DNA of 36,274 bases from a virus. Both the position numbers and the translations under genes were made by a program. Positions 4,062 to 4,214 of the stretch are shown here, one piece after another. The number at the start of each line of letters is the position of its first letter. The first letter of the stretch is position 1. Under the pieces are notes generated by a model. It saw only the letters and a program-made list of their open reading frames with translations, did no database searches and was not told where the DNA came from. Location: positions 1-36,274 of the IMG/VR virus record IMGVR_UViG_3300049846_000535. One strand, written 5' to 3'.

Positions 4062-4214
4062 TGTCATAACTGTCATACTGTCATAAGGAGAAAGAGAGTA
4101 ATTATTATTATTATTATTATTATTATTATTATGACATTATGACAAATGGCTATTTCCTCAATCTTCTAATGGAGTTAACGTGTCGTTCCATCTGTCATGT
4201 GTCATATTATGACA
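4062..4214. repeat. TGTCATA heptamer cluster in both orientations (iteron- or operator-like)
   Basis: Seven exact heptamers occur here: TGTCATA at 4062-4068, 4071-4077, 4079-4085 and 4200-4206, and the reverse complement TATGACA at 4130-4136, 4138-4144 and 4208-4214. A near copy, TGTCATG, lies at 4193-4199. Neighbouring copies are 7-9 bases apart start to start, and the forward and reverse groups flank the (ATT)10 tract. The last three copies fall inside the 3' end of the primase-helicase gene and form a compact inverted repeat with a one-base centre. Such clusters are typical of replication initiator sites and cooperative operators; which of these applies cannot be read from sequence. Confidence 0.75.
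4101..4132. repeat. (ATT)10 trinucleotide microsatellite
   Basis: Ten perfect ATT units at 4101-4130 are followed by a partial unit. The tract is non-coding, lies just beyond the stop of the primase-helicase gene, and is flanked on both sides by TGTCATA heptamers. A pure AT tract between protein-binding repeats would melt easily, as in the unwinding element of an origin. It could also be a simple slippage product, and its copy number may vary between phage particles. Confidence 0.9.

Follow-up and report, generated by a model that had tools for sequence, protein, structure and literature searches.

A cluster of TGTCATA heptamers around an (ATT)10 tract, at the 3′ end of a primase-helicase gene, is most probably the replication origin of the tailed phage represented by IMG/VR record IMGVR_UViG_3300049846_000535 (36,274 nucleotides, analysed at full length and called the window here). 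The reading is well supported because the same anatomy recurs in relatives, because such clusters lie by primase-helicase genes in unrelated phages, and because, in a related family, the repeats change together with the C terminus of the helicase. Its initiator is probably the phage's own 711-amino-acid (aa) Prim-Pol/helicase, the product of the adjacent gene. The cluster was first noticed in a preliminary description made from the letters of the sequence, which likened it to an origin and also considered a cooperative operator.

The cluster and the gene beside it

The repeat cluster is a real, nonrandom feature. Seven exact TGTCATA and one TGTCATG lie within 153 bases (4062-4214), and the preliminary description of them and of the flanked (ATT)10 proved correct letter for letter. 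Three heptamers point inward from one side of a 44-bp spacer of 86% A+T and two from the other, with within-arm spacings of 9, 8, 8 and 8 bases; the (ATT)10 itself (4101-4130) overlaps the first reverse heptamer, which begins at 4130, and the lowest-GC 60-bp intervals of the whole contig begin at 4071-4106. Read along the primase gene, the order is a palindromic pair in the gene end, two heptamers facing the tract, the tract, and three heptamers facing back, so that the inner arm stands just beyond the stop codon and the extra copies inside the last codons. The compact forward/reverse pair described in the gene end is indeed there: the exact copies at 4200 (+) and 4208 (−) make up the 15-bp palindrome TGTCATATTATGACA at 4200-4214, and the near copy TGTCATG immediately precedes the first of them.

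Counting the heptamer against shuffled sequence also came out in favor of the cluster. The whole contig has 11 copies versus 6.0 expected, a number reached in 3 of 100 shuffles, and 7 of the 11 are in the cluster; since just 4 copies lie outside it (1 of them 190 bases off, within the primase gene), the excess in the contig is this single cluster. Moreover, among heptamers with at least 3 different letters, the maximum count of any one per 153 bases in 200 dinucleotide shuffles was 3, 4 or, three times, 5, versus the 7 observed.

Could the same sites be an operator, at which a small helix-turn-helix repressor or the primase controls the promoter at 4044-4017 or one within the cluster? The 15-bp palindrome would suit such a role, and promoter-like sites both overlap and adjoin the cluster. 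The sigma70-like promoter noted 18 bases away is present, but it is a weak match and one of 11 promoter-like sites in this AT-rich stretch, where weak matches are to be expected. Two repeat sets around an AT-rich spacer, the arrangement mostly seen, are unneeded for a simple operator, and an operator would not lead one to expect clusters that go with primase/helicase genes, and with the 3′ ends of these, in phages unrelated to one another, or repeats that co-change with the helicase C terminus. An operator role alone is thus a poor account of the anatomy and its spread, and we consider it unlikely, while keeping it as a rival or additional function. A PhoB box array, or the site of some other host regulator, is scarcely credible: CTGTCATA does resemble a Pho box half-site, but a Pho box needs direct repeats with an 11-bp period, the heptamers here are spaced at 8 to 9 bases in both orientations, and unrelated heptamers occupy the same place in other phages. 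TGTCATA as a literature search term returned no relevant match.

The gene beside the cluster encodes a Prim-Pol domain and a putative helicase region, in keeping with the primase-helicase that had been supposed. The N terminus of its product matches Prim-Pol PF09250 (7.8e-12) and the solved ORF904 primase of plasmid pRN1 (1rni, E 9.5e-5), residues 289-662 match the DNA primase family phrog_3022 (2.7e-48), and the P-loop of the helicase region is conserved; the helicase region had no Pfam helicase match and is recognised by phage families only. Close relatives of the protein were found neither in the viral contigs nor in the genome contigs searched, and among the matches listed those to named phages are partial, at 21-31% identity. 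A DNA search of the repeat region against phages gave no match, and nine distant primases diverged too far for their alignment to serve in a scan.

Recurrence of the anatomy in other phages

Relatives found by protein, blind to the motif, keep the anatomy. In L192-L197, which are relatives of the L039 primase and have a helicase region that matches phrog_3022 as that of the window does, forward repeats, a ATTATTATTATT/ATTATTATATTATTATTATT-like tract and reverse repeats follow right after the primase gene (L193 ends before its second arm), and the ATT-rich tract stands at the same place as the spacer of the window. L192 has TGTCATA as its repeat and a similar extra inverted pair outside the arms, as in the gene-end group of the window; L193-L197, with proteins 73-75% identical to that of L192, have mainly TGTCAC(A) at the homologous places, and the change of repeat extends to both arms wherever both were recovered. 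The only close relative of the module, L208, has the same gene order, a Sak4 61% identical and a primase 26-30% identical, and at the 3′ end of its primase gene 11 copies of AAATTCA in both orientations. Further afield, in named phages with VapE-type primases, and also in a Rhizobium phage with a Prim-Pol, the gene is followed by inverted repeat sets whose motif is particular to the phage (Table 1). In 20 of 30 loci, a count of 7-mers made without regard to motif placed the strongest cluster of the locus in the 400 bases where the primase gene ends; the gene-end cluster was not outstanding in the other 10, which include the distant Prim-Pol phages IMEAB3, CRP-901, H40/1 and NV1.1.1.

The converse search, by motif, requires a control. 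A scan of 2.9 million viral contigs for three TGTCATA spaced 0-4 bases apart gave 95 loci (60 after dereplication), and the reversed heptamer ATACTGT gave 54 (28 after dereplication), so tandem heptamers are not rare in themselves and the count of tripled heptamers alone is weak evidence. Gene context and bidirectionality alone separate TGTCATA from the control. Among loci with a gene of at least 300 aa within 500 bases, that gene was a primase, helicase or primase-polymerase in 18 of 34 for TGTCATA versus 0 of 10 for the control (Fisher p 0.003), and in 14 of the 18 the cluster was on the 3′ side of the gene; at least two opposite-orientation copies lay within 300 bases in 14 of 60 TGTCATA loci versus 1 of 28 control loci (p 0.03). 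The helicases concerned fall in several classes, VapE-like, DUF5906 and DUF3987. Some TGTCATA loci adjoin integrase, terminase or portal genes instead. At five of them (L010, L018, L036, L082 and L087) the tripled heptamers, with 10-11-base spacing, stand directly by tyrosine-integrase genes, where they are possibly an excisionase or attachment-site array, another use of the heptamer.

An AT-rich stretch with about 10 TGTCATA of both orientations around it occurs in 11 related contigs (L009, L023, L025, L028, L031, L035, L048, L052, L063, L072 and L089); their representative, L009, has no gene of at least 300 aa within 1.5 kb, and a terminase gene and genes of about 200 aa without known function are near. 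An array so similar, with no primase or helicase gene within 1.5 kb, speaks for an origin whose reader is a host factor or a different phage protein, whether DnaA-like or a separate small initiator, and not the primase-helicase, and the TTA/TAA triplets resemble DnaA-trio elements. We nevertheless regard such a reader as very unlikely for the window. The closest site within one mismatch of the DnaA box TTATNCACA is at 4774, and such matches number 32 in the window versus 42.7 expected, not above chance; moreover, the motif varies between phages while gene and layout stay, and it tracks the C terminus of the helicase itself. A DnaA-dependent origin was rejected on the same ground, there being no DnaA boxes beside the AT-rich element.

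Table 1. Features of the window and repeat motifs of other phages.
Feature	Position	Strand	Description
Outer arm	4062-4085	+	three direct TGTCATA iterons (4062, 4071, 4079), 9/8 spacing, directed at AT tract
AT-rich spacer, 44 bp	4086-4129	none	between inner repeats; 86% A+T; candidate melting site
Gene-side arm	4130-4144	−	two TGTCATA iterons (4130, 4138), spacing 8, directed at AT tract
Compact group TGTCATG / TGTCATA / inverted TGTCATA	4192-4214	none	within last codons of primase gene
Weak sigma70-like site TTGACT-16-TATGGT	4017-4044 (read 4044-4017)	−	18 bases from outer arm, ahead of open reading frame 3783-3995; 9/12 match
711-aa primase-helicase, proposed initiator	4158-6293	−	N-terminal Prim-Pol; P-loop GTGWGKE in helicase region; DNA-binding domain proposed for last ~70 residues
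Remaining replication/recombination module	6539-9155	+	Sak4-like annealing protein, DUF669 single-stranded-DNA-binding protein, endonuclease/resolvase-like, YqaJ/RecE-like exonuclease; divergent from primase gene
Staphylococcus StauST398-2	after VapE-type primase gene		TGATGCAACA
Listeria LWP01 and Clostridioides phiCDKH02	after VapE-type primase gene		TGTCAACA
APSE-4	after VapE-type primase gene		GTAACAACC
Corynebacterium StAB	after VapE-type primase gene		GGAACAAC
Bacteroides F2	after VapE-type primase gene		CGTTTACC
Marinobacter PS3	after VapE-type primase gene		GGTCACCCC
Rhizobium phage with Prim-Pol	inverted repeat sets after gene		ATTCCAAA

Among known systems, the anatomy and position fit the origin type of the SaPI/PICI satellites (Staphylococcus aureus pathogenicity islands and phage-inducible chromosomal islands), here on a tailed phage, and we group the window with that type because its anatomy is theirs. 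The preliminary description knew of no phage origin with this exact layout, which is right only in part. For satellites the two-set layout is published as that of SaPI/PICI origins (PMC6092414, PMC7581432), and there it was called unique. Its occurrence in many tailed phages, beside the primase-helicases of Staphylococcus, Listeria, Clostridioides, Corynebacterium, Bacteroides, Marinobacter, Rhizobium and Hamiltonella phages and in the window, speaks against uniqueness. The motif varies by element among SaPIbov1, SaPI1, SaPI5 and EcCICFT073 (Ubeda 2007/2012 as cited; Fillol-Salom 2018, PMC6092414), as it does among the phage of the window and its relatives, and SaPI Rep uses its C-terminal domain to recognise short iterons that directly follow its gene (PMC7581432); in the window, too, the repeats are immediately 3′ of the putative initiator gene. 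Unlike the satellites, the phage of the window is tailed and encodes a terminase and capsid of its own, its putative initiator joins a Prim-Pol to a helicase region without alignment to the VapE class, its heptamer is TGTCATA, and part of its repeats lie inside the coding end of the initiator. That the window is itself a PICI satellite was rejected, as it codes for a terminase, a major head protein, a tape measure and a tail fibre.

Other systems share single elements. Cch2 of the staphylococcal cassette chromosome SCCmec, a D5-type helicase, binds three AAGTG iterons just downstream of its gene via its C-terminal domain, which binds iterons in isolation as well; there the iterons are three direct copies only, with no flanking arrangement reported, and the primase-polymerase is separate (PMC7581432). 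Phage P4 alpha, with its ori and crr, is likewise a primase-helicase whose C-terminal winged helix binds iterons, but its primase is of the TOPRIM type whereas the N terminus in the window is Prim-Pol PF09250, and a P4-type system was rejected for that reason. Nor is P4 ori known to be built as two arms at the gene end. Lambda O-type origins share iterons and an AT-rich region with the window; they are located within the O gene and rely on the helicase of the host. ORF904 of the crenarchaeal plasmid pRN1 is of the same Prim-Pol type as the window's protein and has its origin directly downstream of the gene, but that origin is a 100-nt stem-loop without iterons (PMC4234260, which compares the P4 and pRN1 systems).

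Covariation of repeat and helicase C terminus

The bearing of the repeats on the protein that would read them comes from the VapE family of L158, in which helicases 65-100% identical to L158 were grouped by origin repeat. Nearly all origin copies are TGTCA in 5 loci and GGTCA in 18, and the label changes four times on a tree of the helicase core (residues 1-370). Only 2 of 453 columns, 401 and 434, separate the repeat groups perfectly, and both are in the last 75 residues; at column 434 the TGTCA group has Leu or Met and the GGTCA group Arg, the one exception being L180, whose C terminus is apparently frame-shifted. The C-terminal part is a winged helix in a model of mean pLDDT (predicted local distance difference test) 80, which puts residue 434 in the predicted wing just past strand 429-432. 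Moreover, the DNA of L159 and L161 is about 95% identical save for about 600 bases spanning the C-terminal codons and the origin; codons and origin are inherited as one cassette. The divergent block, about 1140-1740 bases from the helicase gene start and at 42-92% identity, has the appearance of a recombination cassette. The best solved match of the L158 helicase is 7PDS, titled “PriRep1 with dsDNA” (Z 33.8, root-mean-square deviation 4.0, 393 residues; Foldseek 1.6e-33), which we take to be SaPI1 Rep, followed by the SaPI5 primase-helicase, NrS-1 and D5.

Such co-change is the pattern to be expected of a protein reading its own adjacent origin. It does not prove contact, because recombination linkage inflates covariation and there are only four independent switches, for which a sign test gives p 0.125; a further caveat is that the C-terminal domains of L158 and L170 are closely alike. 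For the 711-aa protein, the suggestion that iterons are bound by the C terminus is carried over by analogy from this covariation in the related VapE family.

Several results weigh against an origin read by the 711-aa protein. The cumulative GC skew does not turn at 4.1 kb, where a turning point had been looked for, and turns instead at about 6-7 kb, where gene direction flips. An hhalign comparison of the profile of the protein with that of the VapE helicases gave no alignment, and its AlphaFold2 model (mean pLDDT 35) is unusable, so that the winged helix in its last ~70 residues is inferred on a sequence basis, by eye and by alignment with L192. L208 has no obviously AT-rich spacer, and in the distant Prim-Pol relatives L153-L156 the gene is not followed by a repeat cluster; because of such relatives the arrangement must be called common, not universal.

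Proposed initiation, the phage and a possible wider class

The most likely scheme for initiation at this putative origin would have the C-terminal domain of the 711-aa protein bind the heptamers, so that the two opposed groups load helicase rings facing each other across the (ATT)10 tract; the tract would melt, and the Prim-Pol domain would prime the opened strands. The gene-end group of TGTCATG, TGTCATA and inverted TGTCATA may be an auxiliary site, for more initiator or for autoregulation.

Each contig end (1-913 and 35783-36274) cuts through the terminase large subunit gene, and both fragments match terminase families, so the phage genome in the record is probably circularly permuted and nearly complete, with little missing at the junction. 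Judged by its proteins, the phage is far from known ones. Four large proteins of the virion module, at 34158-35795 (545 aa), 29696-30988 (430 aa), 26145-29699 (1184 aa) and 23102-24289 (395 aa), have no PHROGs match, and the 545-aa protein has none in 50,697 phage records. Between the terminase and primase blocks, where the surrounding genes are on the minus strand, a plus-strand open reading frame of 339 aa (2189-3208) combines a homing-endonuclease-associated repeat with a calcineurin-like phosphoesterase.

For most phages whose primase-helicase is of the Prim-Pol or VapE type, no origin has to our knowledge been mapped. With this anatomy as a guide one can be predicted simply, by searching the DNA that directly follows the primase gene for inward heptamers on either side of an AT-rich spacer. 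The broader proposal, to which we give equal weight for and against, is that there is a large class of tailed-phage origins, not brought together until now, in which the C-terminal winged helix of the initiator and the adjacent iterons make up a single exchangeable cassette whose protein-DNA code can be read. If so, Leu or Met in the predicted wing would go with TGTCA and Arg with GGTCA, with all copies switched repeatedly in nature, and the SaPI/PICI origins would be one branch of a phage-wide system and not unique. The natural switches of whole repeat sets along with the helicase C terminus offer ready-made pairs for the study of how such initiators read DNA.
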